A DNA stretch of 64,000 nucleotides, taken from NCBI RefSeq assembly GCF_000003815.2, contig NC_049990.1:1727819-1791818 (forward strand). Direction: 5' to 3'. The stretch comes from Branchiostoma floridae (lineage: Eukaryota > Chordata > Leptocardii > Amphioxiformes > Branchiostomatidae). The notes beneath the pieces are model-generated. The model had not been told where the DNA came from and ran no database searches. It saw nothing but the letters and a program-made list of their open reading frames with translations. A program made the translations under genes and the position numbers. This document shows positions 7,440 to 62,188 of the stretch, piece after piece; positions within the stretch are counted from its first letter, which is position 1, and the number at the start of each line of letters is the position of its first letter.

Positions 7440-7935
7440 CATAAGTGGCAGTAAGTGAAATATATAGACCTGATCCGGGAGTAAATTTATCGATCGAACC
7501 TTAGGAAAAACTGCAAGGATCGCGACTTTGCAAATCACTCTTTTTAGCGCTTGCAATGTAGTCGTAGTCTTGATGTTGTTGTAGTCTTGAAGTCATGTTG
7601 TTTTTGTGATTTTAGAAGACGTTAATCTCTGCTTATTTCAGGCGCTGTAAGCTGACAATGTTGTGTTAAGGTGGGAAAGTTTCTTGGCAGGATTTTTCAG
7701 TCCGCATGGCTAGCTTGCCCCTCCCCCTCCTGTGCAACATACATCATTACGCTATGACAGGCCGCTGTCATCAGACCCGGTAACGTTATCCGTCTGACCC
7801 GGTGGCCACCCCGGTACCAGCACACCACCGAGCCGCTGCACCCAACCCGCTCGGTCCACCCTCACCACGGCCCGCCTGCGCTCCCACCCCGCCCCGCTCC
7901 ACCCTCCCGAGCACGGACACAACAACAACAACACC
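7440..7935 (+). promoter_or_regulatory. PPM1L promoter and 5' UTR
   Basis: CpG-bearing, C-rich sequence from about 7750 runs straight into the initiator context CACCATGG at 7932-7939, a near-ideal Kozak context. No in-frame ATG lies close upstream. The CpG-richer composition against AT-rich surroundings suggests a broad housekeeping-type promoter. The transcription start cannot be placed. Confidence 0.5.
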
Positions 7936-10900: not shown

Positions 10901-12582
10901 TCATAAGGTATTCAATAACATGGCTGGGATTCTGGGATATTTCTTTTATTTCATTCCCCTGGGAATGGGTTTAAGGCACGTTACATGTTGGGTGTGAAGC
11001 ATGTAACATACTGTAAATGCATTTACTTTCGCAGTAGTGGTAAAATGGAGTGTTTGCAGTAATTTTAAGTTCGTGGTAGCGCCATAGACTGCAGTCTCAT
11101 ACAATGATGGAAAAAATGTCCGTGGTGGTTTTAAGTTGGTGGTGAAGTGGTCACAGCGGAAACCACAAACATGAAACCACCGCGAACATTTCTGCATTAC
11201 AGTATTGGTTTGACAGTTGTGAAGTAGCCCCCACCAGGCCTTCCTACGGGGGTGCGGGGATCGTAGCCTCCACCAGGCCTTCCATGGGGGTGCGGGGATC
11301 GTAGCCTCCACCAGGCCTTCCTACGGGGGTGCAGGGATCGTAGCCTCCACCAGGCCTTCCTACGGGGGTGCGGGGATCGTAGCCTCCACCAGGCCTTCCT
11401 ACGGGGGTGCGGGGATCGTAGCCTCCACCAGGCCTTCCTATGGGGGTGCGGGGATCGTAGCCTCCACCAGGCCTTCCTACGGGGGTGCGGGGATCGTAGC
11501 CTCCACCAGGCCTTCCTACGGGGGTGCGGGGATCGTAGCCCTCCACCAGGCCTTCCTACGGGGGTGCGGGGATCGTAGCCTCCACCAGGCCTTCCTACGG
11601 GGGTGCGGGGATCGTAGCCTCCACCAGGCCTTCCTACGGGGGTGCGGGGATCGTAGCCTCCACCAGGCCTTCCTACGGGGGTGCAGGGATCGTAGCCTCC
11701 ACCAGGCCTTCCTACGGGGGTGCGGGGATCGTAGAACTCTGGAAAATTAGCCAGAGGAGTCAGTCCATGCTAATGTTTGTGTCTGCCCAGCCGACCAACA
11801 CCTCTGGTAGCAAAACTCCCCTGGCAAATTATTCTCCCTATAATAGCCAGCGTGATCAGTCTGGTGTAAAGCATTGGTTTCACAGCTGTGTGTATCCTTT
11901 AGTAATAGCAATGACCCATGTCATATATGCCATTTGTATTTTGATGGTATGTTATGAGGATAAGGGTCGTTGACATTATGATATGAACTTTCGATAGGTA
12001 TAATGGTATGTCATTATAGTGAATAAAATCTCTTATTAGCTCGAGTCTATAGTAGCTTTAAAATATGATATAAATGTATTTTTTTACAAACTTTAAAAAA
12101 TAGCCTCAATATAGAAAGCCTTTTTCAGTTTATAATCAAAGACGTGATGATTTTCTTGGTAACCACATGTATTTGAGATGGTACATTGTAGATTTTCTCT
12201 CTAACTCTGACTTCATGTCCATATTTCCTATTCTGAAAACCATGTGGCAAATTTTAAGTCAGGCCCAAAGTTACGTAATGATCACTCACCCCATGTGCTA
12301 TGTGTATTCAGCTTGGTTATAGGGTCAGTGGGCTTTCCTGAAACACAAACATTTTTTTTAATCCCTAGTCCTGTTCCAACACACACCCTGTGTGCTGTGT
12401 GTGTTCAGATTAGGGTCTGCAGGATTGGTCAGTTTCCTGAAACACACCATTTTTTTCTCAGGCCTAGCCCCTATTACATCACACCCCCATGTGCTATGTG
12501 TTCAGGTTAGGGTCTGCAAGATTTTGCTAGGGTCAGTAGTAGGCTTACCTAAACATAACATTTTCCCCCTAGGCCTGTTCCA

Positions 12583-35663: not shown

Positions 35664-35985
35664 GCCTGCGGAAGCTGGTTTGTTACGCCGAAGAGCGGTT
35701 ATACCGGCTATACAGATACAGAAGCTGGTGTGTTAAGCCGAAGGGCGGTTATACAGGCTGCATAGATACAGATACAGAAGCTGGTGTGTTACGCCGAAAG
35801 GCGGTTATACCGGCTATATAGATACAGATACAGAAGCTGGTGTGTTACGCCGAAAGGCGGTTATACCGGCTATATAGATACAGATACAGAAGCTGGTGTG
35901 TTACGCCGAAAGGCGGTTATACCGGCTATGTACTAGATACAAAAGCTGGTGTGTTACACTGAAGAGCCATTATACGGGCTGAACA
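35664..35985. repeat. Tandem array, about six units of ~55 bp
   Basis: Units read 'gaagctggtgtgttacgccg' then AAAGGCGGTTATACCGGC and a GATACA spacer. Internal dyads (GCCGAAAGGCGG; ATACCGGCTATA) are conserved. The first and last units are the most diverged, the usual pattern for an array expanding by unequal crossover. A lone unit is at 9800-9866. Confidence 0.85.
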
Positions 35986-42500: not shown

Positions 42501-44976
42501 TACAGCAGGGGGCTAGTGAGCTGGTAGTGATGTGTGTTTAAGTCCCATACTCTTCCTCATTAGTGCTGAGTGCTAAGCAGAGAAATCAGCATGTGCCATT
42601 TTTGAAAGTTTTGGGTGACTTACAGAGGGGACAGTGAGCATCACAAATTACATTTGGAATGGTACTAGAAGCTATAATGGCTCAATATATTTTCATGGTG
42701 TCCAGACCAATTTGCAGCAGAACACAGTGGTCTACTATCCATGTAAACTCCAAGCTAACCCTATGGTAGCATAGGAATTAAGATAGCATCAAAAATTAAC
42801 AGAGGAGTGAAGCCGGCCTAGGAATGTGTATGCTACCGGTGCATACACACTCCTAAGCCAGCTTCACCCTCCAATCAAGCAAAAAGCAAGCCATTGGTCA
42901 CGAAAGAGGATGGTACCCTGGCTAACTAAAAACTGGAATTTTTTAACAAATATCTTTTTAAAAGCATTACACTATGACAGAAATGAAGACACCATACATA
43001 AAGTTGTGGTTGGAAGTAAAATATAAGTACACACACACACATAATAATCCGTGACATCACACTAACTTATTTAAAACGAAAAGTTTGGAAAATGCCTTCA
43101 AACATATTGGTACACAGCTAAGAAATAGAACACAATAAATACTGACGGCTGCACAGACGGCGTGCTTGAGGAGTTTGAACATCTGTTTGTCCCGGTACGA
43201 CAGCCAGGCCCGCTCGATCACTCGTGTTGCTGTCATCCTAATGATCCTGGAGAAAATAGAAAACTGGCTTAAGAAAGTTTCTATACTTTATTACTAGTAG
43301 TAAGTTTATTACTAGTGAATTAAGACCTAACAGTGTGCAAAATACCCACTTGCACACACATTGCCTCAGAATTCAATTTTGTTCTCAATTTACTTGGAAG
43401 AAATAAATGGACTTGAGGCAGCTCCGTTTCATATCAGCCAAACATGTATGTATTGTACTTTTTTTTCAGAAATTAGTGACTTGTAGGTGGTGCAACTTGA
43501 AATTCAGTTGTGCAACCTAGTTTTTGCCCCAGGTTGCACACTGTGCAACTGCACTGTGCAACCTGGCTCAGAAAAGTATCTTGTACTCTGACCTACCATT
43601 GAAAAAAGACCATCCACAGCCAGTTTACTTTAACACTGCCATTTTTATGGATTGCCTTGCATGTGAGTAATTCTGAAGCTATTTCCAACAGGGTAGTAGT
43701 TAAGGTGTCATGATCATAGAATACATTGTTTGAAAACAGCAGCAGCATGTCTGCTGATACTGATAGGCTTGATATTGTTTTCGAGGATCATTTACAGACA
43801 AACACTTACTCATCCTCTCCCACCGATCCAGGCCTTGGTCTCTGTTTGCTGGTACGCATGTTTGCTATGATCATTCACACCCAAACAAATAAACAAACAA
43901 ATAAACAAACAAACACGTACTCATCCTCCCCCACCGATCCCGGCCTGGGACCCATGAGAAATTCGTCCGTTTGTGTTTCCGTTTGCTGGTACGCATGCTC
44001 GCTGGGGATCTTGATACTGATCTTACTCCCCCTGGGACCAGGGCTGATGCTGTGGACTGTTTCATTCTGCGGACTCCCTCCCTCCGCTCTGTTCTGCTCT
44101 TTGGCACTCTGGAATTAAAAAAGGAAATACAAACATTAACTCATAATGATAATAACAATATACAGCCTTTTTTAAATTTTTCACAGTGGTCTTATTTTCC
44201 AAGTTTCCGCTGTGGACTCGTAGTGTAAAATCATAACGTTGCAACTATGTGTTTAGCAATTCTATTGTACTGTTTCAAGCACAAGAGTTAGACACCGCAA
44301 AAGTTTGTTTTTTCTCCTACATCGAAATAAGACCACTGTGAAAGTGAATACATTTTTACCTAGTATAATACTCAACTATAATACATGACGTCACACTTTC
44401 ACAACCACCTGTAAAGTANNNNNNNNNNNNNNNNNNNNNNNNNNNNNNNNNNNNNNNNNNNNNNNNNNNNNNNNNNNNNNNNNNNNNNNNNNNNNNNNNN
44501 NNNNNNNNNNNNNNNNNNCAAATGTAAAATCGGATCAAATTTTCAATTACCACTGTTATACAATGTTCCCTGAACCGGACAACGCGCTTTCTACCATAAT
44601 TTACTATAATACACACCCTTTTTGTTGATTTGTCAGTTTCCACCCCCCACCCCCATTTTTGGTCTCTTTCTGTCCTGGCATACGTTACTTTAGGAGCAAG
44701 CAAGGCGCATGGCTTGGTTCATACAACGCTTAAAGTCACCAGAAGAATTAACACATGATATTCTAACATCGAAAAAAAAAAGGAAATGCAACCATTGGAA
44801 GGTACACAGTACCAAGAAATTACAACAAATTATTTTTGGACGCCATGACACTTTTTAGCCCAACCATCTTTTCCTTAGCAACGCGGTTTTGTGGCCTTTG
44901 TGAGACAAACAGCACCACATTTAACACCCAAACAGTCACCATTCCATCCCAAGATACCTACCATTCCTCTGGTCAT
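39508..44976 (-). CDS. CXorf58-like: CXorf58-like protein (uncharacterised, likely cilia/sperm-associated)
   Basis: Nine exons: 44962-44976, 43921-44108, 43147-43246, 42274-42368, 41677-41788, 41122-41329, 40661-40817, 39970-40117, 39508-39681. Phases 0,2,0,2,0,1,2,0 are all consistent, giving 398 aa; human CXorf58 is about 330. Recognition rests on remembered conserved blocks in the right order: RVIERAWLSYRDKQMFKLL (an IQ-like helix), EILRKVSPMEANLLKDP, FPPEIVFKVFIHT, DSCRLMGHRKFY, MKDYMQYLSNMDETPAY, GGKENLWRKL, LPRQSIMYDIVEYL and RSQRGSKQAKK. The first exon (MTRGM|GTAGGT) is the weakest part, chosen because its phase fits. The C-terminal tail is acidic (EDQEDWEQEADKLYEWTQ). The family has no established biochemical role. 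Expression in ciliated and testicular cells is typical of such genes, and the head-to-head position with IFT80 supports a ciliary guess. Confidence 0.8.
40933..41111. promoter_or_regulatory. Cluster of four RFX X-box-like palindromes
   Basis: GTTGCTAGGCGAC (40933-40945), GTTGCTAGGCAAC (40951-40963 and 41076-41088) and GTTGCCAGGCAAC (41099-41111). The last fits the X-box consensus GTNRCC-N-RGYAAC exactly with a 1-nt spacer; the others differ at one or two positions. RFX factors drive ciliary genes in animals. The cluster lies in a CXorf58-like intron about 4.3 kb from the IFT80 start. Confidence 0.5.
40986..41050 (-). pseudogene. Partial copy of CXorf58-like exon 6
   Basis: Plus-strand 'aggttctccttgc-tcccatgtac' and 'cagtgttgctaagata' copy the interior of the exon at 41122-41329 (about 41139-41200) with roughly 15 percent change. 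It keeps neither splice site. It is embedded in the X-box repeats, showing that both were duplicated together. Confidence 0.7.
43331..43590. mobile_element. Interspersed element with CAG-NNN-CAAAATAC termini, copy 2
   Basis: Starts CAGTGTGCAAAATACCC and ends GTATCTTGTACTCTG. It shares 'tttacttggaagaaat', 'gcaacttgaaattcagttgt' and 'ccaggttgcacactgtgcaa' with 14921-15244. Left and right flanks both show ACCTA, a possible partial target duplication. Confidence 0.6.
43808..43862 (-). pseudogene. Partial copy of CXorf58-like exon 2 (3' edge plus donor)
   Basis: The minus strand repeats the last about 55 nt of exon 43921-44108, including GGATCGGTGGGAGAGGATGA and a donor GTAAGT stronger than the true GTACGT. 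It lacks about 25 nt of the exon and has no evident acceptor. If an upstream acceptor existed it would be an alternative exon end; more likely inert. Confidence 0.7.
44181..44342. mobile_element. Small foldback element
   Basis: CACAGTGGTCTTATTTT at 44181-44197 is mirrored by AAATAAGACCACTGTG at about 44325-44340. The interior is not coding. It lies in intron 1 of the CXorf58-like gene beside the sequencing gap. Confidence 0.55.
44419..44518. other. Assembly gap (100 N)
   Basis: Exactly 100 undetermined bases, a conventional size for a gap of unknown length. It lies in the modelled intron 1 of the CXorf58-like gene, about 900 bp from the IFT80 start, so exons or regulatory sites there could be missing. 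Confidence 0.99.
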
Positions 44977-45403
44977 CCCGGGAAAACGACAAAAGTGTGG
45001 AAATCTGTCGTGTTTTTGTGAAAAGTGATCAGTCGGTCAGGAAAGCCATTGTTTATAAGCTACGACCTTCGACCTTTTAGAGATTCAGGTCACGTGACTA
45101 AGCAAGAACGTAAAACCTGTTTTATTCATGTTTCCTTGGTTCCTTGCCAAACAGACTGAATTTGTATAATAGCAATAATACTGTTATTGACTTTTAGGTA
45201 AAGGAAGATTTGTGTTCAGTCAGAAAAGAAGCAAAATCGTCAATTCTCGTTTAAGGCTACACGAGAGTTGGCGAGACTGTGCGAGACTTTGGGTACATTC
45301 CAGGCCCGTTCTCAGAGCGCGGTTCTTTCAGTGTTTTCTATCCGGACATCGGGAAGTTTCTGCGACTTTTCACACATCTGCGCTGTCCCTGGAACCTGCA
45401 AAC
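44869..45403. promoter_or_regulatory. Divergent IFT80 / CXorf58-like promoter
   Basis: The two start codons (44976 minus, 45404 plus) are about 430 bp apart. The interval contains the palindrome GTCACGTGAC at 45089-45098, a USF/MITF/TFEB-type E-box. A right X-box half (AGCAAC, 44877-44882, preceded by TTTTCC with a 2-nt gap) lies just inside the minus gene. No TATA box stands out. Shared regulation by ciliogenic factors is inference. Confidence 0.55.
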
Positions 45404-48400
45404 ATGAGGCTGAAGATATCTCTCGCCAAGGAACCAAAACATATCCTTTTGCGTGTTGATAAGTGTACGGGTAGACTTTGCGAAAGTTCAAGATATAGTG
45501 GGGAGGGGGGCGTAAGTTACTAGCTACATCTTTGGATTTCATAATAATTTGGACATGATTATTTGCACGGAAACTTGTATTTCTGTTGTCTGTTTAAGCG
45601 ACATTTTATGTCCTTGACAAGATGATTGATGCTTTGTGCTTAATGCCAAAAATGATCAGAGTCAAGTATTATAAAACCATAAATGTGTGTGGGATATGAC
45701 TCTCCCAGACACGGGACCTCCATTAAACATCTTTTCCTAGGTACAGCCCTTAAATGAAAATCAGGTGTATTTGCAGCCAGTAGGTACCCAATTTTTTTTA
45801 GTAATGAGGCTGATTTACTTGATCGAGGCACCTCCTTGAGGCTTGAACACAGGACCCCCATTTTACGTCCCTCCCGAAAGACATGTCCAGGAATTCTTGG
45901 TCAGGTTACAGCATCTGGTCGTCTTTTTTGGTGGGCTCCCATCCAGGTACCAACTGGACTGCATGGTCAATAATTTGCTTAATTTCCAAGATCGAGGGGA
46001 TTTGGTGTAGTAAGCAAAAGCGAGGTTTTTATTTCGACCTGAGTGAAGCGAGGAAAGCCGTACATGTGTAACAGTGGGGTCAAGGAGTACTAAACATTAA
46101 ACTGACCATGCCAAGCGGCTTTAAGCCTTTTTTTAGTGTAATGGTTTAGCGTCTGGGTTTGTGGTCTGGCGGCCCGGGATCGGCACGGGTTCGAATCCTG
46201 GAAGCCAGGATATTGTTTCTGTTTGTTTCTGCTCGCCCTTGTAGTTGTTTCACTTGTATTCCCCTTGACCCCGCTGCACATACGGAGCTGGTAAGCAGTG
46301 TTGGCTGGACTCGTAACATTGATCATTTGATTTTGATGTCTAACCTTTAATGTCTAACTTTCAGTGATCATCACGGTCAAACCTTAAGTACATTAATTGT
46401 AACAAACACTATGAGCATACATTTCCCCTTGACCCCGCTGCACATACGGAGCTGGTAAGCAGTGTCGGCTGGACCACAGCAGACGAGCTGTACTCCTGCA
46501 GCGACGATCACGCCATCCTCAAGTGGAGCCTGCTCACCAACGAGACATCTCAGCTCGCCAAACTTCCCGCGGAAGTCTACGCCACCGACATCCACTGGTT
46601 CCCCAAGGTGGTGGGGGGAGGGAAGGGGAAAAAGGGGGAATCTGACGTGTTTGTGTTGACGAGCACTGATGGTAAGTTTTGTTTACTTGTTTGTTTGTTT
46701 GTAATGTTTGTGTGATTGGGAAGTCTACGCCACGGACATCCACTGGTTCCCCAAGGTGGTGGAAGGAGGGAAGGGGAAACAGGTGCAGTCCGATGTTTTT
46801 GTGTTGACAAGCACTGATGCCAGTGATGGTAAAGTTTCTCATACTATTTTTGTATTTCTTTATTTTCATATTTCTCTTTTTATTTCTTCAGAATTCTGAA
46901 CAGGATATGGGACCAGTGTTTACTGAACACTAGATAACTAAAATAGTTTGTGGAAAGACTTCTATGATCTTTATTTACTTCTTTTGAATTTGGCTAGTTG
47001 GGCATAAGACATGACTATTCTCGGTTTGTAGAAATATTTTTACGGAGTGGAGTATTTTTCTCTTTCATAGCACTTTGGTGACTTATTCATAATTACCAGA
47101 GTTTTGTGAGTAGTAGAATTCGAGTTGAAACTGCTAACTCAAATGGTAGTTGCCTAGATTTTTAAATATTATTGTAACAGTTATTCAAAGTGAAACATTT
47201 TATTTCTTCTTTATCACAGGGAAGTTCCATTTGATCTCCCGACTGGGGAGGGTGGAGAAGAGTGTTGAGGCTCACAAGGGAGCCGTGCTCTCAGGGAGGT
47301 GGTCATATGATGGAACAGCCATGGCTACAGGTCTGTATGGGCTGGTGGAGGGGGGTGGCCACATAATGGAACAGCACTTGAGTATGACAAAATCTTTTCA
47401 CTGTGTTGACAGTATTACTTAAACCCTCTCCATGTTGCCTAACCTTGTATCCAATACAAAAATTAATGTAGTGCAAAATGACTGCCTAACAGGCTAGTGG
47501 TTAAAAACTCACGGTCACTACTTGGTTCATCATCTGTTGTCCCCATCTTTTGAGAGTGCTTGGACATATAGACATGACATTTCGATGGCAGACTGCCTGG
47601 TGCTAATTCCTTTCTCCCACAAGTTAAATATAAACAAAGGTAGTGTTTTCCTTACCATTTTATGCTACTGTGTTTTTAAATGTTTACTGGTTGGTCATTT
47701 AGATGAACACTAGAGATGGTGTGTTCAGAATTGCTAAGAAATACATAGACTACGTGCATGAATTGGAAACAAACATTTTTACTTTCAATTGCTCTCCCAG
47801 CCGGAGAGGACGGCCAGGTGCGTATCTGGTCCCGTAGTGGGATGTTACGCTCCACCATGGTTCAGCAGGGAACGCCGGTCTACTCGCTGGCCTGGGGACC
47901 TGATTCTGACCAGATCCTGTACACCAGCGGCCGGCAGCTTATCGTTAAACCTCTGCAGGCTAACGCTAAACCTATACAGGTGGGGCTTCATTCATTCATT
48001 CATTCATTCACTCACTCACTCACTCAGTCACTCATTCACCGGACTCTGACCATTCACTCACTCACTTACTCACACACTCACTCAATCACTCACTCACTCA
48101 CTCACTCATTCACCAGACTCTGACCATTCACTCACTTACTCACACACTCACTCACTCACTCACTCATTCACCGGACTCTGACCATTCACTCACTCACTTA
48201 CTCACACACTCACTCACTCACTCACTCCTGACCAACTCGGACCAGATCCTGTACACCAGCGGCCGGCAGCTTATTGTTACACCTCTGCAGGCTAACGCTA
48301 AACCTATACAGGTGGGCTTCATTCATTCACTCATCTTCTTCTTCTTCTTTCATTCATACACTCTCTCACTCACTCACTCACTCACTCACTCACTCACTCA

Positions 48401-51400
48401 TTCACTCACTCGCTAACTCACTCATGACCCAACTCAGACCAGATCATCTACACCAGCGGCAGGCAGCTTATCGTTAAATCCTTGCAGGCTAATGCTAAAC
48501 CTATACTCTCACCTCTCAAATAAACGTACCGGTACGTTTATTTTTTTCCGCCTCAAAATCCACCCGGTACGTCCTTATTTTAGACGGTACGTTTATTTTT
48601 TTTTTCAAATTGGGGCTTTCTTTACTAACCAGGGACCCCAAAAATATTGAAAGTTTGGTATTTTCTGCCCATATTTCCGCGGTATTTTTGCTTAAAATTC
48701 ACTATTTTCGGACGAGGCAGCGCGGATTTCCCTGCCGCTAGCGCTATGACCCAAACATAACTAGGGATGCGTACCGGTACGCAGGACCGGTTCTGGACTT
48801 GCAAAAACGTTTCGGTTCAGGTCCAAAAATACCGGAACACAAGTGATTCGGTACTAGACTCGTAAAAAAATATATCCTTTTCGTTTTAGACCATCTTTAA
48901 CCTTCCAAAAATCTTGAAATTTGGGCTGAACAAAGACGAAAACATCGAGGTCACATGCTACACACACAGTCACTTACTTCCGTAAATTCTCTATCAAAAC
49001 ACAGAAATTAACCACCAACCAAACAAATTAAAAAGTTACCAATACTTTTCCACTATTTTTCATCCGTAGTCAACTTGTTTTAATGTTCCAGCAACGAAAA
49101 AATCCTTCCAAAACAAAGCACAGCGTTCAATCGGCTCGAAAACATCCGCCATGTTGGATTCATCAACTCACGCCGAATCTCGCGGTAATGCGCGAGAGAA
49201 TTATATATTTTCTGCAGTACCGTTATATCTCGATAGGGGGCAGTGTCTATGACCTCGTTGGTTTCTGCAACATTGAAAATAGCAAAAAAGTGGTGAATAA
49301 GGTATTCTAAGTTGGAATGTTTCTTCAAAATGTTATTATATTTCAGCCATACCATAGGTATGGTGAAATATATTGTATTCGTAATGTTTCTTTCTTTCTT
49401 TCTTTCTTTCTTTCTCCTGTCAAATCTTCAGAACACGGTATCTCCCTTGTTCCTCAACCGAATGACTTGAAATTTGGCAGAAGGGTAGAGTGGGCCAATA
49501 CCCTCGGACGTTTTTTTCATTTTTTCCATATCTGTCTCTTAAATGATTTTATTAAGGTTTTTTTGTCATCTTAAGACCAAAACTGTATATTTGGGCCCCC
49601 TGTACCCTGGTATTACAACCGAATGAGCTGAAATTTGGTACAGATGTGCCTTGATACGTCCCCCATATAGATTCAATATCAGTTTTGGTGTACAGTATAA
49701 CGAAATACTTATTTTTGCGATTTTTTGGTCATTTTTTTACCAAAAAAGGACACTTTTGGCTCCTGTACCTTGGTTTTAGAACCGGATGACCTGAAATTTA
49801 GTATAGGAGTGCCCTAGACATATGCGCACATGGATTCAATAACACTTGAGGCATACGGTACAATAACATGCTCAATTTTGCGATTATTTGGCCATTTTAT
49901 GACCAAAAAGTACACTTTTGGCTCTTGTGCTCTGGTTTTTAAACCAAATGACCTAAATTTTGGTAAAAGGGTGCACTAGATATTTATTCAAATGACACAT
50001 GTATAATTTTTGTCATAGACTACGTCAAAATGATATATTTTGGGATTTTTTTGTCATTTTCCAATAGCCAGAGGGGTCAATGACCTTAAGGTCGTTGACC
50101 CCCAGCTGCAGATTGGGCCTACCGGCATATATGTCTATTTAATCTAATTAGATAGGTAACCAATCACTTAGCCTGAATCTATATCCTAAAGAGGGGGGGT
50201 GGCAGCCAATCAGCGAGCCCGGTGTTATCTGGAAGAGTCCATTCTTACACGGAGGGGTTCATTTTTTTTTTTAAATTCATCATTGGACTGGTGACTTTGC
50301 AATTTTACAGAATGTGTGCTGGAAGAGTCTATTCTCGCACGGAGGGGGGATTTTTCAAAATTCATATTTTGGACATTGGTGACTTCTAGTTTGTCAAAGT
50401 CTTTCAGTAGGGTTATTTTTGGACTGGTCTAATTTGCAATTTTACATGGGTGTTCTGGAAGAGTCCATTCTTGCATAGAGGGGGCTTTTTTTTTAAATCC
50501 ATTTTTTGGACTTCAGTGATTATGTCAAAGTCCTATTTTAGCGGATGTATTTTTGGACTGCTCTACTTTACATGGAAGAGTCCATTTTTTGCACACGGAA
50601 GGTTTTTTTTTCAAATTCAGTTTTGAACGGGTGATTATTCAAAATTCAATTTTAGTGGAAGTGTTTTTAGACTGGTCTATTATACCTTTCTATGCACTGG
50701 GACCTTTTTTGCTAAATTCAATTTTGGATTTGGTTTCTTATTCAAAAGGCCAAGGTTTCAGTGGGAGTATTTCTGGACTGGTCTATTGTGCAAATTCACA
50801 TAGGGTGCACTGGAGTCCATTCTTGAACGGGGGAATTTTGTAAGACTCATTTTTGGGTTAAACCGTCATTAGTAAAAGTGATTTTTCAAATGGGTGATTT
50901 TGAAATAGCCTATTGTTGCATGGGAGATGGCTGAAATATGCTGTATTTGCTCTCAAGCAAATGTCGGCCTTTCTAGTTTTGTAACAATGATTATGAAATT
51001 AACTTCTTTTTCTATTTCTTCAATTTTTATTTTCATTCATTTTTTACTTTTATTTTAATCTTTGTTGATGGTGTGACACTCAGATAAAGAAAATATGTGC
51101 AATAACATAGGAATTATTCTGTTCATTATTCATACAATTAACTGATATGGTACTGAGGCATAAATGAATAAAAAGAGCCTACCTGCTGATCATCTTCTCT
51201 TGGACTGAAGTAGCATGGGCACAGTCTACATGTCAATTTGGTATTTTTCCGGGGGGGTACTTTTATTCCAGGGGGTACTTTTATTAGATTTTGAAGATTT
51301 GTCCGGGGGGTACTTTTATTCCAGGGGGTACTTCTATTTGAGAGGTGAGAGTACAGGTGGGGCTTCATTCGTTCATTCATTCAAATACTGTCTCTCTCAC

Positions 51401-54400
51401 TCACTCACTCGCTCACACTCACTCACATACTTATTTTGATTGATTCATTCATTTTTGCACTATTCCATTCTTCAATGTCTTCCTTTTTTCATTCATTTGG
51501 TCGTTCATTTGGTCATTCACTCATTCATTCATCTTTTGCCTTACTCATTTGCTTATGTTTACATGTGTAGGACAGTATAGCACAAGACAATGTTAAGTGT
51601 CCTTCTGTTCCGTAATTTGTATGGTCTAGTGGTTTGTTATCTTCACTTACTCTAGTCAGTGTTTTGAGCTGGACACAGCGACAATATTTCCATATTGGAG
51701 GTAGTGATTGACAAATATTATTTATTCCAGTGGAAAGGTCACGAGGGAGTGATCCTGAAGGTCGACTGGAACGCTGTTAACAACCTGATCCTGTCTGGAG
51801 GGGAGGACTGCAGGTACAAGGTAAGGACGGCAGGGAATGGGGTACAATAGATTCCACCTGAGTTCATGATGGTCTCTATTTAAGATTTCAGCAAAGGTAA
51901 TGCTATAAGCAGTTACTCAAGCAACTGGACAGGATTTTGGAAACAGACGTTTCAGACAACCATCCGTTGTCTTTCGTCAGTGACAGTAAAGATGTTTATA
52001 TTTAACATAATTGCATGATGGCAAAAATTGCTTGACATCATAATTACATTGTTGTGAGAAGCAGAAAGATTTTTTGAGCTCCATGTAGTTATGAAGCACT
52101 TTTTTTGTGACGTATGCACTTTTAAAGACCTTGAAGAGAAGTACATGTATTCTGAATGGAGAGCATGACAGCTTTGATCATGTCTATTTAGGACAGCTTT
52201 ATTTATTTGTAACATCCAGTTAAAGATAGATTTTAAGGATAAACTAACAGGCACTTGTTTTCCAGGTGTGGGACAGCTATGGGCGTCTCCTGTTCACCAG
52301 CCAGGTGCATGATTACCCCATCACCTCTGTCAGCTGGGCCCCTGACGGGGAACTTTTCGCTGTCGGCTCCTTCAACACGCTCAGACTCTGTGACAAAACT
52401 GGGGTAAGCTTCGGATTTTTTTAAGTTTCCCGTTCTTCTATGGGGTAAAGGAAAAGTGAGTTCCCCATAGTCTTTTTAAGGTAATAGAGGACTGTTGTAA
52501 TCTGCTGTGTCCAGGGCACAGTATTGTGAGGCGGAGTCCAACCCTCACCTCCCACCACCTTGTACCTCCCCAACCAAAATTACATAACAATTTTTACCCA
52601 GCCAAAGGCAGGTACCCATTTTTTTTTTTTTTTTTTGCTCCCAGGTGGAGTGAGGAAAGTCATGTAAAGTGTCTTTCCTAAGGCAGTAAGGGGACATATT
52701 TGATAGCCTTGGTCAGTAATGGTACCACCTGACGTAATAAATCTATAGTCACCTCTTTTACTACTTTTTAACACTGGAAACGCATCCAACATTGCCTGAT
52801 CTAGCCATGGCATCACCTAATTTTTGCTATCTGCAGTAACCAACTATACTACTTCTTTCCACCGCAGTGGTCCTGTGCACTGGATAAACCCAACACAGGC
52901 AGTATATTCACCTGATCTAGCAATGGCACCACCTGATTTTGGTTATCTATAGTGACCCATTATACTAATTTTTTCCACCACAGTGGTCCTATGCCCTGGA
53001 GAAACCCAACACAGGCAGCGTTTTCAACATCGCATGGTCTAGCGACGGCACTCAGATCGCTGGGGCTTGTGGGAATGGTCACGTGATCTTTGGTCACGTG
53101 ATTGAGCGGCGGCTGGAGTGGAAGAACTACGAAGCCACAGTGACCGATCGTAAGTCGATCCAAGTTCGAAACGTTATGGACGACGCACGAGAGAAGCTCG
53201 ACTTTCGCGATCGGATCATCAAGACTTCGCTGGCGTTCGGCCATCTTGTGGTGGCCACAACATCACAATGTTACGTCTACAGGTGAGTTGGTGTGCATTT
53301 TGTTGCCTGCTTGATGATTTTGTGTTCCTTTCATGTTTTTTTACATAATGATAGGTTTCTGTAGCTATTATAATCATCAGTATTATAGTTCATTTTACAG
53401 TAGAAGTCAGTTAATTGCACAATGGATTAACGTACACTTCTGTTAACTGCACGGAATCTTCAAATCGCAAACCGGTGTGGTCCAGCTTGATAACTTCGCA
53501 TTATTGCACCAGCCGGATAATGGCATGAAATTCACTGGCAAATAGGCCGTGCAAGGCTTCTACTGTATATGTGGTTACTGGTACATTTTTTGTAGGTTCA
53601 TCAAATTCAGTTGCCAGTAATTTTGTCAATCTTGAAAAGAGAACATGCTAATGATATATAATATATCACATCGAATGATATTTGTACTATGCTTTGCCTC
53701 CCCTCTTAGCACCAAGAATTGGAACACTCCAATGATCTTTGACCTGAAGGAAGGAACAGTCACCCTCATAGTGCAGACTGAGAAGTAAGAGTCCTTTTCT
53801 TGAAAATTAAGATATGACACTTTATGTTTTTGTTGTAATATGTGTCAATGGTACTTATTGTTTTGAGAACTTGATTTTGAGATCTTACTTCTTAGACCTT
53901 ACAGTGCCTTAGAAATAATATCAAAGCTGGCAAGGGACTTGGTATAGTGGCACCAGGGTCTGCCTCCAAGGTGCTCGTTTGACTCCCTTTGGCTGGCTAT
54001 ACTCCTTGGCAGCTTTGATACTACATTATGTATCTCTAAGGGTCTGCTTGGAGACTAAATAATCACAGCAAAGTGAAACTTTGTCTTTCCCCAGGCACTT
54101 TGCTCTGGTAGACAGCAGTGGGATACAGGTGTACTCCTATGAGGTAAGTTTGAAAAGAGGGGTGACTAGAATTAGTAGAAAAGTTTTGACTTTGCATACC
54201 TGACTCAAAGCAACATTGTTCAAGACATTTATTGTTAGTAGTAACAAGACTACTAACAATTCCTCATCATAAAATGTAAAAACCTTAATATGAATATTGT
54301 TTAGGACAGAATGTACATTGTACATCAAAGCATTACTTACTCAAAACTACACATTGTCCATCTGTGGTAAGTATAACACTATTAGGCTGAATTGATGCTT

Positions 54401-55688
54401 GAAAATTCAATTTAAAAGAATCATAATAGTATATACTAGAGCAAAGAAGTTTTAGGTTTAGAGTTGAAATAGTATCTATTAAATGTAACCTATACAGTTG
54501 ACTTAAAGTCTATCTTACTATATCTATCAACATTAGAATCATTGCTAGAGAATGCTAAAAACACTTATGATGGATTTTTCTAAACTCTACACATCTATCC
54601 CCAGGGCCGGATGCAGGCATCCCCCAAAGTCCCAGGCCTGCGCCCGGACGTGCTGAACGTACAAACTCTCTCCATCAGTAACGATGCTGTGGCCATCCGG
54701 GACAAGAAGGACGAAAAAGGTTTGTACAAAACTTACACAACTTTCAGTTCTGTCTCTCTTATTGTTAGTACTAAGTGTTTCCAAGGATCTTAGCATTTAA
54801 TTCTTTTTCTATACATGCCTGGTTTGGAAACTGTCAGATATACAAGGCCTAAATGTTATAAAGTGTCCAGACGTTCAGTGTATCTCTTTAAACCAGGCAC
54901 ATTTGAAAGCTGGTGTGTTTTTCAGAACAATATTTTGACTAGTTGATTTATACACGTGAAGATTGACTCATCCATAGTTTCGAAGTTCACATTGTAGGGA
55001 TAGCTGCAGAAATATTCAAGTTTTTCTACGACCCAAAGTTGTAAGACTTCTTTACTTGACTAACTCAGTAGAATCTCAAACCCTTTAATACCAGTTGTTC
55101 CAGAAAACTTGGAATACATGGTGAGAATAGCTACAATTTTAGGGAACAGAAATATTTCTGAATCAGTTTTACTACAAGAAGTAAGACTTTCCCTGTACTT
55201 GGTCCAACCCAATGATTTTGTACATTCTTTAGAAATACACAATGTCATATACAAGGCCTAAACATTATGGTGACAAAACATTAAGTGTATCACTTTCAAC
55301 CAGGCACATTTGAAAGCTGGTGACAGTGTGTTTTTCAGAAAAATAGTTTGACCAGTTTATTTATTTTTCTATTGACTAGTTAACTAGCACACATAAAGTT
55401 TGACTCATCAATCATTGTGTGTATGTGTTCAAAAGTTCACACTGTTGTAATAGCAGCAGAAAAATTCCAGTTTCTCCACCACACAAAGTTGTAAGACTTC
55501 TTTTATTAACTGTACTTAACCCTACTGTCCTAAAGGGAGTGCAGGGTCTTGGTACGAGGAACTTGAAGGTTTGGGCCTGACCGACCCACCACCGCCTGCT
55601 ACAACACAGCAGTGTATTACCCTCCTAAACCCTGACACTCGCAAACAACTGGAACAGCCTGCCACGGCAATAGATCATCTCACTTGAA

Positions 55689-55719
<31 letters not shown>

Positions 55720-58700
55720 TCTCTCTCTCCAGTTTAACCTCTGTTGTTCCCCATCCTGTGGGGGTTATAATACAGATATACAAGGCCTAAACTTTAAATG
55801 TTCAGTGTATCACCTTCACTAACTTTCAGTCAAGCACAGTTGAAAACTGGCATGTTTGTCAGAAGAACAGTTTGACTAGTCGACTAATACAAGTGAAGAC
55901 TGTCTCATTGATAGTTTCGGAGTTCACCCTGTAGTAGTAGCTGCAGAAATATTTTTGTAACGCACAAAGTTGTAAGACTTCTTTCTTTACCTGTACTTGA
56001 CCTGACTGTCCTGAAGGGAGTGCAGGGTCTTGGTACGAGGAACTTGAAGGTTTGGGGCTGACTGACCCACCACCTCATGCTACCACCCAGCAGTGTATTA
56101 CACTCCTAAACCCTGACACTCGTAAACAACTGGAACAGCCTGCTACAGCCATAGACATGGCTACAACCCTAGAAATGGACATGACCATCGACCAATCACG
56201 CTGGGAAACTCTCCAACACACCCTCATTGGTCGCTTTCTCAGGGGTAAGGCAGATGGGTGGTGGGGTCTGTTGGACCGTTCCATGTTCTAGGGGTGGTCA
56301 GGCCCTTTGGACTGTTCCATGTTTATAGGGTTGGTCCAGTTCTGTTAGACCGTTCCATGTTCTAGGGGTGGTCAGGCCCTTTGGACTGTTCCATGTTCCC
56401 TGGTGGTCAAATTTTGTTGGAGTGTTCAATGTTGTAGGAGGAGTCCACTAATGTTGGACTGTTCCATGTTGGAGGAGGGGTTTGATTCTGTCCATGTTGT
56501 AGGGGTGGTCAGGTCCTTTGGACTGCTCCATGTTCTAGGAGGAGCCCAGTTATGTTGGACTGTTCCATGTTGGAGGAGGGGTTAAATTCTGTCCATGTTG
56601 TAGGGGTGGTCAGGTCCTTTGGACTGTTCCATGTTGAAGGAGGGGTTGGATTATGTTGGACTGTTTCATGTTGAAGGAGGGGTTGGATTATGTTGGACTG
56701 TTTCATGTTGTAGAGGTGGTCAGGCCCTTTGGACTGTTCCGTGTTCTAGGGGTGGTCAGGGCCTTTGGACTGTTCCATGTTTTAGGGGTGGTCCAGTTTT
56801 GTTGGACTGTTCCATGTTGGAGGAGGGGTTGGATCCCATTGGACTGTTCCATGTTGGAGAAGGGGTCGAGTTTTGTTGGACTTTTCCATGTTTTGGGGAG
56901 GGAGGGTCTGTTGGACTGTTCCATGTTGGAGGAGACGTTGGATTCCATTGGACTGTTCCATATTGGAGGAGGGGTTGAGTTTTGTTGGACTGTTCCATGT
57001 TTAAGAGGGTAGCAGACTGTTGAACTGTTCCATGTTTTAGGGGATAGAAGGGTCTGTTGGACTGTTCCATGTTGAAGTAGGGGTCAGAAATTTCAACAGA
57101 CACCAGGATATCAAAGACCTATTTCTGCTCATTTCAATGTGATACCTTCATTTCTACAATTTTGTTTTCAGGCTTAAAACTGGAATATATTATACAGTAC
57201 TGCACATTGATGGTGTTTTTGTTTGCCCACAGTTGTCCACCTGTTTGATGCAACATCAGGAAAACCACTCGGTGATGGCAAACCCTTTGTTCACAAGGTA
57301 ACTTATTTTGGCATGTTACAGAATTGTAATTATTGACTAATTACAAGAAATAGTCGATAGTTTCTTGTACAATCCTAGATACTCTCTCTATCCGGTTTAG
57401 CGTCTGTTGCTCCCTGTCTTAAGATATATGTACTTAGCAATCCTCAGTTAGTAATGTACTGAAATTAAGGTTAGATGGCTATACGTGAATGTATATAAAT
57501 GTGTATGGTTTAAGTTTCAAAGAATTCTGTGACAGTTTTTAAAAGAAGATTTTTTCTCACATTATTGATTAATTACATCTATTGACCGATCGATTGAATA
57601 ACTGATCAAACAAAAATGTTGATTGATTGGTTGGTCATCAATTCATCAACCAATAAATTATCAATTGATTGATTGTCCAGCTAGAAGTGATGGAGGTTGC
57701 ATTGGACCAGTGCCATGATTGCTTGATAGATGGATTGATGTATTATCTGACTGATTATTTGATTGATTATTTGATTGATTGATTGATTGATTGATTGATC
57801 GACAGCTGGAGGTGGCAGAGGTAACGTTGGACCAGTGCGGCCCGGCAGCAGAGCGCCGCCTCGCTATCGTGGACAAGAACCGTGACCTGTACCTGGCGCA
57901 GGTGCGCGCCGTGGGAGGGGCCAGGAAGGTCATCAAACTAGGTACGACAAACAAACAAACAAACAAACAGACATTTCCTGGGCAAGACAAACATTCCACA
58001 GGCTAAGTAAACAGCCAAACATACACAAGTTAGTACCAAACTAGGTATGACAAAACAAACAAGGGAGGACAACTTGTAAAGGTGTTGATACACCTGTTTT
58101 GTCCTCCCTTCCACTTGTTTTTGCATGTGGTAAATTCAAATAAAGAAATAAAGAAACAAACAAATAGATATTTCCTTTCAATGAACCTTACAATGAACCT
58201 TTCAAAGATGCAATGTGAGTGGTCATGAAGATTTTGACACAGCCACTCTTTGATTTGTTCAATTAGTTTTGCCAAGTTTAAGATGAAAACAAAGTACTGG
58301 GAGAAAAACTTGAATCTGACTATTTATTTCACTCTGAAATATTTTTGTACCAACTCAAAGGTACAGTCCTCCCCCTTAAGCTCTGTTTTCTTGTTGATCT
58401 TTTGAAGTCTTGGAAGATACTAATCAAAATTTTGCAGTCTTAGAATTCCTTAGATTTTTTTCTTAATAGGCACCAACAGGCCTTTACAATCACAATATGG
58501 TAAACTTCATGACGAGATCTATTCTTTGTAGGGTTTTACAGACTACGAATTCAGCACTAAGGAGAGAGCCGTTCTTTATAGTGTTTTACAGACTATAATT
58601 TAGCACCAATGCATGAGAGATCAGTCTTTACTCTCATTCTCCTTACTACACCCCTCCTTTTGCAGGTACGATGGTCCACTCGATGTCGTGGAACGATGAA

Positions 58701-61700
58701 ACCAACATGCTCGCGGCTCTGCAGGACACCAAGCTGGTGGTTTACTACTTTCCCAACGCTGTGTACGTCGACAAGGACATCCTGCCCAAAACTCTCATGG
58801 AGAAAGATGCAACGTGAGTAGTACACAACATACGTAAAGTTTTAAGACTGAAATAGGGGTGGGTACAGGATATTGAGGTCTAGATCCAGTTTTTCCAGAC
58901 AGGTCCAATAAGAAAAAACTTTTTACTGGTACACCGTGCCAGTACCCACCCCTGGTGATACATTTTTTAAGCATCCTTGCCACTGTGTGACGTAGACTAG
59001 ACGTTAACTGAAGAACGTTTACTTAAGAATTAAAGAAGGAAACGTTTACTGATCATGAAGAATTAAAGAAGTATATGTAACGAAGAAGACTTTGTTCAAT
59101 TGGTCTACTAACCTGATGAAACAATAAAGGTGTCTACTGTTTTTTTAATAATATGCTTTTTCTGCATAGTGAAGAACCCTCAGATTGTGATTAGGAGATG
59201 CCCACTTTCCTGGTATCAGAATACATCTGGTATTAAACAGTTTTCTCCACAATTTTTCTTCCGCAGTGAGTTTGGAAAGAACCACCAGATTGTGATTAGG
59301 AGGTATGCATTTCTTTTGTATCAAGAACACTTCTGGTATTTAACAGTTTTTCAACGACTTCTCTACCGCAGTGAGTTTGGGAAGAACCCTCAGATCGTAA
59401 ACTTCTTGGGGAATCATGTGATCATCCGGCGCGCCGACGGCTCATTGGTCAGCACGGGGGTGTCGCCCTATCCCAGCATGCTCCACTCCTACGTGTCCAA
59501 CTCCCGCTGGGACGATGCCGTCAGGCTCTGCAGATTTGTTAAGGTTTGGACACTTTGGGCTTTTTTACCCTAAAGGAATGAAGTGAATTTAGTAAATTAA
59601 AATATTGTTTTCAGCTAGTCTGCCTATCAGTGTGTGCCTCTGCAATGCTATTTTCATTAAACACAATGCAGTAAGCCTTTTTTGTCAGTGGGACTGGAAA
59701 GGTTGCAAGTCAAATCTGCCATCTCTGATTTCTAGAGTACTGTTGTTCTAGCACAGTGGAAGCCGGATAATTGCACGGCCTATTTGCCAGCGTATTTCAT
59801 GCAATTATCCGGCTGGTACAATAATGCAAAGTTATCTAGCTGGACAGCACGGGTTTGGGATTTTGGGACTCAGTTGCAGTAAACAGAAATGTGCATTAAT
59901 CCATTGTGCAATTAACTGGCTTCTTCTGTACAAGTACTTTCTTCTCTTCTTCTTTCCTCCATCTGGTGTACTCCATTGAGGTTGCATAAAGTTTTCCTTC
60001 CTATCAGACACCAAGGCAATTCCTGTGTTAAAGTGGCTGTCAATTTTACTGTTTACAGTATCTCAATCCAATTTCCAAAGAAAGCCTAGCTCCAACTACT
60101 GACACTACCTGTACGGGCATTACTCAATTTTCATTCTAAATAGTCTACAATGAAACAGTTAATGATAACTACAGTGACACTCTTCACTCCATCTGTCCCC
60201 GCAGGATGAGGCTCTGTGGGCATGTCTGGCTGCCATGGCTGCCTACGCAAAGGACCTGAACACAGCAGAGGTGGCGTACGCTGCAATAGATGAGGTAAGA
60301 CCTCTTGTTGGCATCCATCTGTCTCGGAAGACAATGGTAGGCAGACAGTTACTACTCATGCACTGTCTGCCTGGCCTGCATGTGACTTTTTAAGGTGAAG
60401 GAGGGATGTGCACTTCCTTCTCCACCCTCTCGTCTACTGGCGCACTAAGTCCTACAGGGACAAGAACTGTATTCCATGTATATGTTTATATATATATCCT
60501 TCATTAAATAGAACAAGCAGTTTTTTTACTTCAAAAGGAAGCAGGCTGAATAAAAATTCTCTAACTGGAAGCTATGTGACTCAACTGCCCACTTATAAAA
60601 GTCTAGGATTTGCAGTATTTTTTTCTAGGGGAAACGGGAAACAGGAAACACAACATTTTTTCCTAGGCCTCATGTAATAAGTTTTGGCCAGCCCCATTCA
60701 ACTTTAAATTGGCAAGTCTTTCAAAAACAGTATATCATAGAATATGAGATCATGACATGTAATAGTTAGAAAATGTTCACAAGTTTGTGACAAACTTTTC
60801 CCCCTCGCAGGTGGACAAGGTGCAGTACATCCTCCACATTAAGGAGATTCCTTCCAAGGAGGCGAGAAACGCTGAGATGGCGCTTTTCTGCGGGAGTCCT
60901 CAAGACGCGGAGGGGATCCTCCTCCAGTCTGGACTCGTCTTCCGAGCCATACAGATGAACATTAACCTCTACAACTGGGACAGGTACGTCTTATATGAAT
61001 GTGAAATCCGAGATGTTTTTAAATTATCATTTTTGTTTTCCCAAAGGTATGTTTTCCCGAAGAAGAAAACATATTGTTTTTGCTGGTGTGTTCTTTTTCT
61101 TGCTACCTGAATGTAAATGAAATTTTTCAAAGATCTCCATAATTTCAGCACAGGTGCCAATTAAACAGAGTCTACTTCACCAGCAGAATTGACCCTCAAA
61201 ATGCAGGAAATAGTGTTTCAGAGGGTCTTAGATTTCAAAATTTTCCCGTAACCCCTTTGTACCATCACGTGGAAGCCCCTAGCACTTTGTTCAAAATCCA
61301 GGGGATGAAAAAAATTCAGGCTGTCTAGATCACTGATCAGAGCATTTCATTTCATACTTTTACTTTAGTTTCTATATAAATATGTGAAGAAAATTCTTCA
61401 TGAGCTGAACTTGCCCTTGTCCTTCAGAGCCCTTGAGCTGGCTGTGAAGCACAAGACGCACGTGGACACGGTTCTGGCCTTCAGACAGAAGTACCTGGAG
61501 AAGTTCGGCAGGAACGAGAAGAGCAAACGCTTCCTGCAGTACGCAGAGGGGGTGAGAAAATCTTCTATTCTTTCTTAACATTCGCTTTCTTTGTTAGCCA
61601 TGCCATACACTCAGTGTTAACCCATAGGCAGGGAAGTTTGGGGGCTGGAGACAAACCCTCTACACACACAGAAAAAACAAAAGGAATGATCAATGAATCG

Positions 61701-62188
61701 AACCCTCTCTTGACAATGCTGTTATTGGCCGTATCTGTTTTCTTTTTCTTTTGAAACCTAGTCTCACAGCTGATGTAGGAATTGTCATTTCTGATGGTTG
61801 AAGTTTCAAAAGTAACCAAAAGCTCACACCTTTGGCGCTCCTTAGTCAAAACAATCGAACCATTTTTTTAAAAATCTGTATTCAGATGGGACTAGGTAAG
61901 GTAAGGTAATGCAGCGAAACCTACAGCTCCAGTACAATGTGAAGCAGTCAGAATTGCCCTGAGGAAGGTGTCAGACAGTCACCAAATTGACCAAAATGTC
62001 ATGGGAAATAAAACAACAGTTCTGAAAACAAAGTCTCTTTATTCTGGATGTTTATCAGTTGCGCTTTAAGAGTAAACAAACTGTTTACCTGTTGTTCTCA
62101 GGTGGAGGTGGACTGGCAGAAGATCGAGGCAAAGATCGAGATGGAACAGCAGAAAGAGCGGGAAAAGGCCGCCACAGTCAGGCGGTAA
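45404..62188 (+). CDS. IFT80: IFT80, intraflagellar transport complex B WD-repeat subunit
   Basis: Eighteen exons: 45404-45440, 46444-46671, 47220-47330, 47801-47979, 51731-51820, 52266-52403, 52984-53282, 53710-53784, 54095-54143, 54605-54719, 57233-57297, 57806-57941, 58666-58813, 59372-59543, 60205-60294, 60811-60983, 61428-61551, 62102-62188. All phases agree, giving 771 aa; human IFT80 is 777. Strongly conserved blocks run from [13 protein letters not shown] at the start through [54 protein letters not shown] and [21 protein letters not shown] to the charged C-terminus. N-terminal WD repeats form propellers and the C-terminal third is helical. IFT80 belongs to the IFT-B complex, which moves cargo toward ciliary tips; human mutations cause Jeune thoracic dystrophy. 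Intron 1 is U12-type. Several introns contain partial copies of neighbouring exons, and three of these could be extra in-frame exons. Confidence 0.97.
45690..46200. repeat. Repeat-derived sequence in the U12 intron, including a SINE head
   Basis: About 45690-45900 shows the 'taggtacccaat' type repeat also seen at 2200 and 52610. At 46136-46200, 'gtaatggtttagcgtctgg' (A-box-like) and 'cacgggttcgaatcctgg' (B-box) are spaced as in a tRNA-derived SINE head. Confidence 0.5.
46259..46310 (+). repeat. Duplicate of the U12 branch site, 3' splice site and exon 2 start
   Basis: TTCCCCTTGACCCCGCTGCAC plus the first 31 nt of exon 2 is copied 164 bp upstream of the real site with one mismatch. The branch site and AC acceptor of the copy are intact. 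After the copy the frame runs on for a dozen codons to a stop unless a donor such as ACTC|GTAACA is used. Either a decoy or an alternative acceptor for the minor spliceosome. Confidence 0.85.
46724..46828 (+). CDS. Candidate in-frame duplicate of IFT80 exon 2 (3' half)
   Basis: 105 nt encoding [36 protein letters not shown]; the real exon 2 ends with nearly the same peptide plus a small deletion. Phase 1 at both ends and 35 codons, so inclusion would keep IFT80 in frame and repeat a WD strand. The donor G|GTAAAG is good; the acceptor TGGGAAG| has a poor pyrimidine tract, so inclusion may be rare. An extra 'ASD' at the end separates it from the parent. Confidence 0.45.
47351..47379 (+). pseudogene. 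Short partial copy of IFT80 exon 3 3' edge
   Basis: 'ggtggccacataatggaaca' repeats 'ggtggtcatatgatggaaca' of exon 3, about 50 bp downstream within intron 3. No splice sites are retained. Confidence 0.6.
47980..48505 (+). repeat. CTCA/CATT arrays with two partial copies of IFT80 exon 4
   Basis: The last about 75 nt of exon 4 with its donor recurs at about 48236-48311 (ending ATACAG|GTGGGC) and 48430-48505. Each copy is followed by a long (CTCA)n or (CATT)n run, as is the real exon. So a unit of exon tail plus microsatellite has been tandemly triplicated. The copies have no acceptor. The third copy is interrupted by the element at 48506-51351. Confidence 0.85.
48506..51351. mobile_element. 2.85-kb non-autonomous transposon with TA duplication
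   Basis: Termini CTCTCACCTCTCAAATA and its exact mirror TATTTGAGAGGTGAGAG are flanked by TA (48504-48505 and 51352-51353). Removing the element and one TA restores the third exon 4 copy (...CCTATACAGGTGGGG), which proves the insertion boundaries. Sub-terminal GGTACGTTTATTT / GGTACTTTTATT repeats line both ends. The interior holds two tandem repeat families (about 49430-50040: 'ctgaaatttggta' units; about 50220-50850: 'gaagagtccattctt' units) and a (TTTC)n run near 49388. No transposase frame is present. Confidence 0.9.
51354..51730 (+). repeat. Remainder of IFT80 intron 4, CATT/CTCA repeats
   Basis: Begins with the tail of the split exon 4 copy (CAGGTGGGGCTTC) and continues through imperfect CATT and CTCA repeats to about 51540, then unique sequence to the exon 5 acceptor. 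Confidence 0.75.
51821..52265 (+). other. IFT80 intron 5
   Basis: 445-bp GT-AG intron. AT-rich, no repeats or exon copies recognised. Confidence 0.8.
52440..52720. repeat. SINE-like fragment in IFT80 intron 6
   Basis: 'ggcaggtaccca-ttttt', 'ccaggtggagtgaggaaagt' and 'catgtaaagtgtctttccta' match the arrangement at 2160-2280. A T-run of 19 lies inside. Confidence 0.5.
52868..52927 (+). pseudogene. Partial copy of IFT80 exon 7 5' edge with acceptor
   Basis: CCACCGCAG|TGGTCCTGTGCACTGG copies the true acceptor and exon start 116 bp downstream. The frame reads [15 protein letters not shown] then TGA. An upstream duplicate acceptor; using it would truncate the protein. Confidence 0.8.
53398..53565. 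mobile_element. pogo/Tigger-like MITE, copy D
   Basis: 168 bp in IFT80 intron 7, TA-flanked, ends CAGTAGAAGTCAGTTAATTG and GGCTTCTACTG. It lacks about 6 bp of the right terminal region present in other copies. Confidence 0.8.
54834..56010 (+). repeat. Three-copy tandem duplication inside IFT80 intron 10
   Basis: Units beginning 'agatatacaaggcctaaa' (about 54834, 55247, 55773) share 'cacatttgaaagctggtg', 'gaagttcac', 'tagctgcagaaatatt' and 'caaagttgtaagacttcttt'. The second and third units each end in a candidate exon (55536 and 56017). The first unit ends without one. A (CT)n run at 55687-55731 separates units two and three. Confidence 0.8.
55536..55689 (+). pseudogene. Broken first copy of the 76-codon cassette exon
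   Basis: Starts after CTAAAG| with the same sequence as 56017-56244. It reads [17 protein letters not shown] onward for about 50 codons, then diverges and hits TGA at 55687 where a (CT)n run replaces the rest. The donor is lost. Confidence 0.75.
56017..56244 (+). CDS. Candidate 76-codon cassette exon in IFT80 intron 10
   Basis: Bounded by TGTCCTGAAG| and G|GTAAGG, 228 nt, phase 1 at both ends, no stop in the phase that matches both IFT80 neighbours (exon 10 ends G|, exon 11 starts TT). It would encode [20 protein letters not shown], a Thr/Gln/Leu-rich middle with [12 protein letters not shown], and a helical [14 protein letters not shown] end. It has no counterpart in human IFT80, where the adjoining segments abut. 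Codon-level conservation with 55536-55689 favours third-position and synonymous change, which hints at past coding selection. It could also be an exon of an unrelated inserted gene. Confidence 0.5.
56276..57075. repeat. GGACTGTTCCATGTT minisatellite
   Basis: More than twenty occurrences of 'ttggactgttccatgtt' separated by variable GGAGGAGGGGTT, AGGGGTGGTC or similar linkers, giving units of about 34-60 bp. Both strands show long frames with repetitive Cys/Phe/Met or Asn/Ser/Thr composition, which are artefacts. It starts right after the cassette exon donor. Confidence 0.9.
57681..57802 (+). pseudogene. Partial copy of IFT80 exon 12 start, then (GATT)n
   Basis: TTGTCCAG|CTAGAAGTGATGGAGGTT reads [14 protein letters not shown] against the true [14 protein letters not shown] 125 bp downstream, then stops. 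Between copy and exon lies a GATT microsatellite (about 57740-57802). The same arrangement, exon edge plus GATT, occurs on both, so exon edge and microsatellite duplicated together. Confidence 0.75.
59170..59302 (+). repeat. Two partial copies of IFT80 exon 14 start; one a possible 36-nt microexon
   Basis: 59267-59302 lies between CTTCCGCAG| and |GTATGC. It encodes [11 protein letters not shown] and is phase 2 at both ends, so inclusion would add 12 residues in frame before EFGKNPQIV of the real exon. A more degraded copy starts at 59170 (GCATAG|TGAAGAACC), where the matching donor has become AGATGC. The acceptor tract of the first is as good as that of exon 14. Confidence 0.6.
59754..59928. 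mobile_element. pogo/Tigger-like MITE, copy E
   Basis: 175 bp in IFT80 intron 14, ends CAGTGGAAGCCGGATAATTG and mirror CTTCTTCTG. The left TA has mutated to CA. Opposite orientation to copies A, C and D. Confidence 0.75.
60515..60670. mobile_element. AGGCC...TGTTTCCTGTTTC MITE family, fragment
   Basis: Contains 'gaaacaggaaacacaacatt' and ends CCTAGGCCT, with 'acttcaaaaggaagcaggct' and 'ggaagctatgtgac' matching the mid-region of the family. The left end is missing. Confidence 0.5.
61180..61335. repeat. Interspersed repeat fragment in IFT80 intron 16
   Basis: 'aaatgcaggaaatagtgttt', 'cttagatttcaaaattttcc' and 'aaatccaggggatg' match 38545-38690. Family unknown. Confidence 0.5.

Follow-up and report, generated by a model that had tools for sequence, protein, structure and literature searches.

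How the transcript of the IFT80 gene is carried across the break in its conserved N-terminus, and by which class of intron, is the question raised by a 64,000-nucleotide stretch of the Branchiostoma floridae genome (hereafter the window), in which the reading frame of this gene is interrupted between the first and second bases of codon 13. Our analysis points to a U12-type AT-AC intron at this position, with an acceptor that is present twice, and we consider below what identifies the gene, what marks the intron, which acceptor would be used, and how the alternative readings of the junction fare.

Identity and Structure of the Gene

The exons were located by tblastn with a human IFT80 protein query, over a span of 45.4–62.2 kb on the plus strand, and the junctions were picked by fit, with the exception of intron 16, which was set by eye. 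The resulting model (Table 1) is a single open frame of 771 residues without a stop, and the gene is IFT80, as the original prediction had named it. Specifically, the solved IFT80 chains 8bd7_I and 5n4a_A, which we take to be from Chlamydomonas, cover query residues 1–767 of 771 (E about 6e-267), and Pfam recognizes both the second beta-propeller of IFT80 (PF23335, E 6.9e-138) and the IFT80/172 TPR domain (PF23387, E 2.4e-74). In addition, 521 of the 763 residues aligned with the human query are identical. Intron 1 alone is AT-AC, the 16 other modelled introns all being GT-AG.

Elsewhere in the window, we note a PP2C phosphatase exon at 33939–34481 (Pfam PF00481), which is presumably PPM1L-like, with a possible first exon at 7840–8292 for which no Pfam match was obtained; the same holds for four minus-strand ORFs between PPM1L and IFT80. 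A 732-codon open frame on the minus strand (24557–26755), leucine-rich-repeat-like by eye, is perhaps nested in the phosphatase gene. An assembly gap of 100 N (44419–44518) precedes the first IFT80 exon by ~0.9 kb.

Table 1. Positions in the window of the IFT80 coding region, of the proposed intron 1 with its splicing signals, and of the repeated elements in and around this intron
Feature	Position	Strand	Basis or remark
Complete IFT80 coding region	45404..62188	+	18 coding exons, 17 introns (16 GT-AG, 1 AT-AC), 771 aa
IFT80 coding exon 1	45404..45440	+	M1 to first base of codon 13; gap-free N-terminal match to 8bd7_I/5n4a_A
Intron 1, very probably U12-type AT-AC	45441..46443	+	1003 nt, phase 1, splits codon 13; signals and frame
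Putative U12 5′ splice site ATATCCTTTT	45441..45450	+	fits published consensus; U6atac complementarity
Dispersed repeat in intron 1	45750..46009	+	most of 42 genome matches (query 451–710)
Second dispersed repeat in intron 1	46069..46257	+	two genome matches (query 770–958, 800–934)
Upstream acceptor-module copy (branch motif and AC end, with nt 1–31 of exon 2)	46259..46310	+	98% identity
Decoy AC acceptor	46278..46279	+	use would give 35-aa product ending in stop
Downstream acceptor-module copy, the frame-keeping one	46423..46474	+	98% identical to 46259–46310
Putative U12 branch-site motif CCCTTGAC	46426..46433	+	A at 46432, 11 nt from intron end
AC 3′ splice site	46442..46443	+	junction fit, branch spacing
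IFT80 coding exon 2	46444..46671	+	tblastn E = 8e-26 vs human IFT80 query; gene model

Splicing Signals of Intron 1

The exon 1/intron 1 boundary reads AAAC/ATATCCTTTT at 45441, and the intron 1/exon 2 boundary reads TTCCCCTTGACCCCGCTGCAC/ATACGG, with 46443 as the last intron base. The TTTCCCCTTGACCCCGCTGCAC stretch before the acceptor is C-rich, with 17 of its 22 positions being pyrimidines (by hand count), interrupted by G and A. In U12-type introns, a distinct pyrimidine tract is usually missing ahead of the acceptor; the stretch seen here does not plainly conform to this, and we weigh it against the U12 reading. The donor, which had been described as perfect, fits both published forms of the U12 consensus, given as (A/G)UAUCCUUU in PMC8199999 and as /RTATCCTTT in PMC2846911. 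A gap of 8 nt separates the branch motif from the AC, and the distance of 11 nt between the A at 46432 and the intron end at 46443, in agreement with the original prediction, is inside the published optimum of 11–13 nt (PMC3584512; the range is given as 10–20 nt in PMC8199999 and PMC3584512). Compared to the published branch consensus UCCUUAAC, CCCTTGAC is off at two positions (C for U and G for A), which we also count as a point against a U12 reading; the CCTT and the final AC are kept, and the same G is found in the U12 intron TTGTCCTTGACC (PMC7367187, Table 1).

The genome from which the window is taken also carries snRNA genes of the minor spliceosome. Searches for U12 and U6atac over its 513,431,437 bases (431 contigs) each returned a single full-length gene above threshold, U12 with 132.1 bits against a cut-off of 53 and U6atac with 133.6 bits against a cut-off of 33. 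The AAAGGA of this U6atac is complementary to the UCCUUU of the donor (intron positions 4–9), and the U12 has GUAAGGA, of which the AAGG is complementary to the CCUU of the branch motif.

The reading frame leads to the same boundary. When exons 1 and 2 are joined at 45441/46443, the translation aligns gap-free to 8bd7_I and 5n4a_A (MRLKVKQSSANVHSELTAAVGW) and His13 is kept. Taking the signals and the frame together, we hold intron 1 to be, with little doubt, a U12-type AT-AC intron, and we infer from the sequence that the transcript is spliced at this junction. In such a case, and following the established pathway, the U11/U12 di-snRNP would recognize ATATCCTTTT and CCCTTGAC together, U4atac/U6atac.U5 would join next, and intron 1 would be excised with codon 13 rebuilt (C/AT, His).

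Intron 1 resembles U12-type AT-AC introns not only in its donor, its AC end, and the branch motif with its spacing, but also in its standing as a lone minor intron among GT-AG introns, in phase 1 and near the 5′ end of the gene. In human, 26% of U12-type introns are of the AT-AC kind (PMC7367187, section 17), and minor introns are described as biased away from phase 0 (PMC10639083) and as concentrated in the 5′ portions of genes (PMC2426677). Where intron 1 differs from U12-type AT-AC introns is in its tandem, doubled acceptor module.

Duplication of the Acceptor

A feature that escaped the original prediction is the doubling of the acceptor region, which takes in the branch site and the AC acceptor as well as the start of exon 2. 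The module of 52 nt is present twice at an offset of 164 nt, with a single mismatch between the copies (Table 1), and this raises some doubt as to which copy the spliceosome uses. Meaningful use of the upstream acceptor (46279), be it by mistake or as a poison splice, is a possibility that we consider unlikely, even though the two copies, one base apart over their whole length, are identical in branch motif, spacing, and AC end, and U12 introns are known to use alternative 3′ sites in some cases, with 3′ site choice by this machinery being error-prone (both in PMC3584512). Set against this, use of 46279 leads to a stop after 35 residues, local duplications occur across the whole window and are not enriched at the exons of IFT80, and the duplication might be an assembly error. 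In addition, the GTAAGT donor of exon 2 would, by exon definition, probably favor the downstream acceptor. Also considered was a route through the decoy in which an 11-nt microexon (46280–46290) is followed by a GT-AG intron to 46451. The frame would stay intact with one Leu gained, but we judge this route unlikely because the exon is so tiny.

While use of the upstream acceptor stops the frame after 35 residues, retention of intron 1 does so after 39. A transcript of either kind would probably be degraded, and thus IFT80 output should depend on the activity of the minor spliceosome. One could go further and propose that the tandem acceptors form a switch, in which the upstream AC would give a short, decay-prone message and the ratio between the two would tune IFT80, and with it cilium building, to minor-spliceosome activity. 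A regulatory role of the twin acceptor is possible, though unsupported, and we regard this specific form of it as very unlikely.

The duplication is also not an isolated one. Across the window (1–64000), we find 49 aligned pairs within 1.5 kb of each other, which were grouped by hand into ~24 clusters. Those within IFT80 are neither enriched over exons (5 of the 10 hand-defined IFT80 clusters overlap an exon, against a permutation mean of 5.0) nor tied to exon edges (a boundary lies inside 4 of the 10, against a permutation mean of 4.8). With so many local duplications in the window, that of the acceptor is probably neutral, and, since they are window-wide and not exon-enriched, no selection need be invoked to account for it. 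The most fitting view of the twin acceptor is thus that it exemplifies a general tendency to local duplication, either in this genome or in its assembly.

Among the other duplications in IFT80, the last 101 nt of exon 2 (46571–46671) recur in intron 2 (46719–46819) with 89% identity, the end of exon 4 has two extra copies in intron 4 (47897–48506), beside TCAC/TTCA simple repeats, and the starts of exons 7 and 14 are found, together with upstream intron, in tandem copies (52795–53051 and 59172–59398, respectively). Minisatellites are present near 11224–11734, 35671–35957, and 56256–57087.

Intron 1 itself contains two dispersed repeats (Table 1). The first shows 74–81% identity among the genome matches listed, except for one short match at 82%. 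The second leaves a single base between itself and the upstream acceptor copy, and holds a weak, degenerate tRNA-like stretch (46124–46208), which ARAGORN reports at a relaxed threshold only, with none at the default. Folding of 46120–46260 is no better than that of shuffled sequences (z 0.58), no structured RNA was matched by Rfam at the gathering threshold anywhere in the window, and over 45400–46700 there was one Rfam match (E 0.24), far under its cut-off. When 45300–46700 was compared with the genome and the best 40 candidates were scored, no second copy of the locus, be it the other haplotype or a spliced retrocopy, was found. Among the 42 genome matches, exon 1 or the intron 1 junctions are covered by the locus itself only, and the one other exon match is the neighboring duplicate of exon 2.

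Alternative Readings of the Junction

The join between exons 1 and 2 can be shifted through six registers that yield an identical mRNA, with the end pairs AC-GC, CA-CA, AT-AC, TA-CA, AT-AT, and TC-TA. The other five end pairs being noncanonical, AT-AC is the sole canonical register. We also enumerated the junctions between donors at 45410–45529 and acceptors at 46000–46519 with GT-AG, GC-AG, AT-AC, or AT-AG ends, and scored them against the N-terminus of the human IFT80 query. Of 92 in-frame, stop-free junctions, the AT-AC junction at 45441/46443 gives the best fit (315), and the next (301) is 45443/46433, which also has AT-AC ends, with no U12 donor and three residues inserted. The alignment to the PDB chains backs the preferred AT-AC junction independently of the human query. 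The GT-AG and GC-AG alternatives to intron 1 were rejected on fit, and no GT-AG junction that was tested keeps the conserved N-terminus intact. The earlier observation at codon 13 is confirmed, and its reading as an AT-AC U12-type intron is supported, the AT-AC junction scoring 315 as opposed to 297 for the best GT-AG junction.

It is highly improbable that a U2-type GT-AG intron links the two exons at slightly shifted positions. Frame-keeping pairs of this kind do exist, the best of them being 45455/46451 (the junction with the score of 297); however, in this junction the TE of the conserved N-terminus becomes ILLR, the donor is GTTGAT, the purine-rich CACATACGGAG stands immediately before the acceptor, and the U12 donor and branch motif are left as a coincidence. 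The size of this coincidence can be gauged from 400 kb of sequence generated by a first-order Markov model of the window. The per-site probability of ATATCCTT is 2.5e-5 in this sequence, and a YCCTTRAC whose A is 8–20 nt ahead of an AC end has a probability of 9.2e-4, giving a rough joint chance of donor and branch/acceptor at the intron 1 junction near 1e-8.

We note that ATATCCTT is over-represented in the window, with 8 copies on both strands compared to 2.4 expected, which is a further point counted against the U12 reading, and that ATATCCTTTT is present in 2 copies compared to 0.35 expected. As both words exceed their expected counts, little can be concluded from a donor-like word by itself. 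For YCCTTRAC, the two strands of the window together have 8 occurrences, two of these being the twin acceptor copies. The strength of the case is rather that both signals are located where the conserved reading frame must break.

Finally, excision of the AT-AC intron by the major (U2) spliceosome deserves almost no credence, since, while AT-AC ends also occur outside U12 introns (PMC3584512), the donor and the branch site that define U12 introns are both present here at the correct spacing, and in none of the 24 genomes listed in PMC7367187, Table 2, does AT-AC exceed 0.07% of the U2-type introns.

Implications for IFT80 and Ciliary Genes

The original prediction gave considerable weight to the dependence of a ciliary gene on the minor spliceosome, and the significance is smaller than it assumed. 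In human, the gene has already been counted among those with a minor intron: a 2026 paper (PMC13216214) names it, in its accessible text, among the minor intron-containing IFT-B genes that are down-regulated in ZCRB1-heterozygous human cells, such that a minor intron in human IFT80 is already in print. The likeness to the B. floridae gene is at the level of the gene, with codon and subtype unstated in that text, and the codon position of the human minor intron was not found in a limited search of the open-access literature. The type of intron is thus already known and the gene already listed in human, and the added twist of the present locus is its tandem acceptor signal. Two near-identical U12 acceptors within one intron provide a natural test of 3′ site choice by the minor spliceosome. 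In turn, with the intron described here a non-human orthologue of IFT80 joins the ciliary genes that rely on minor splicing, which helps to date this dependence.
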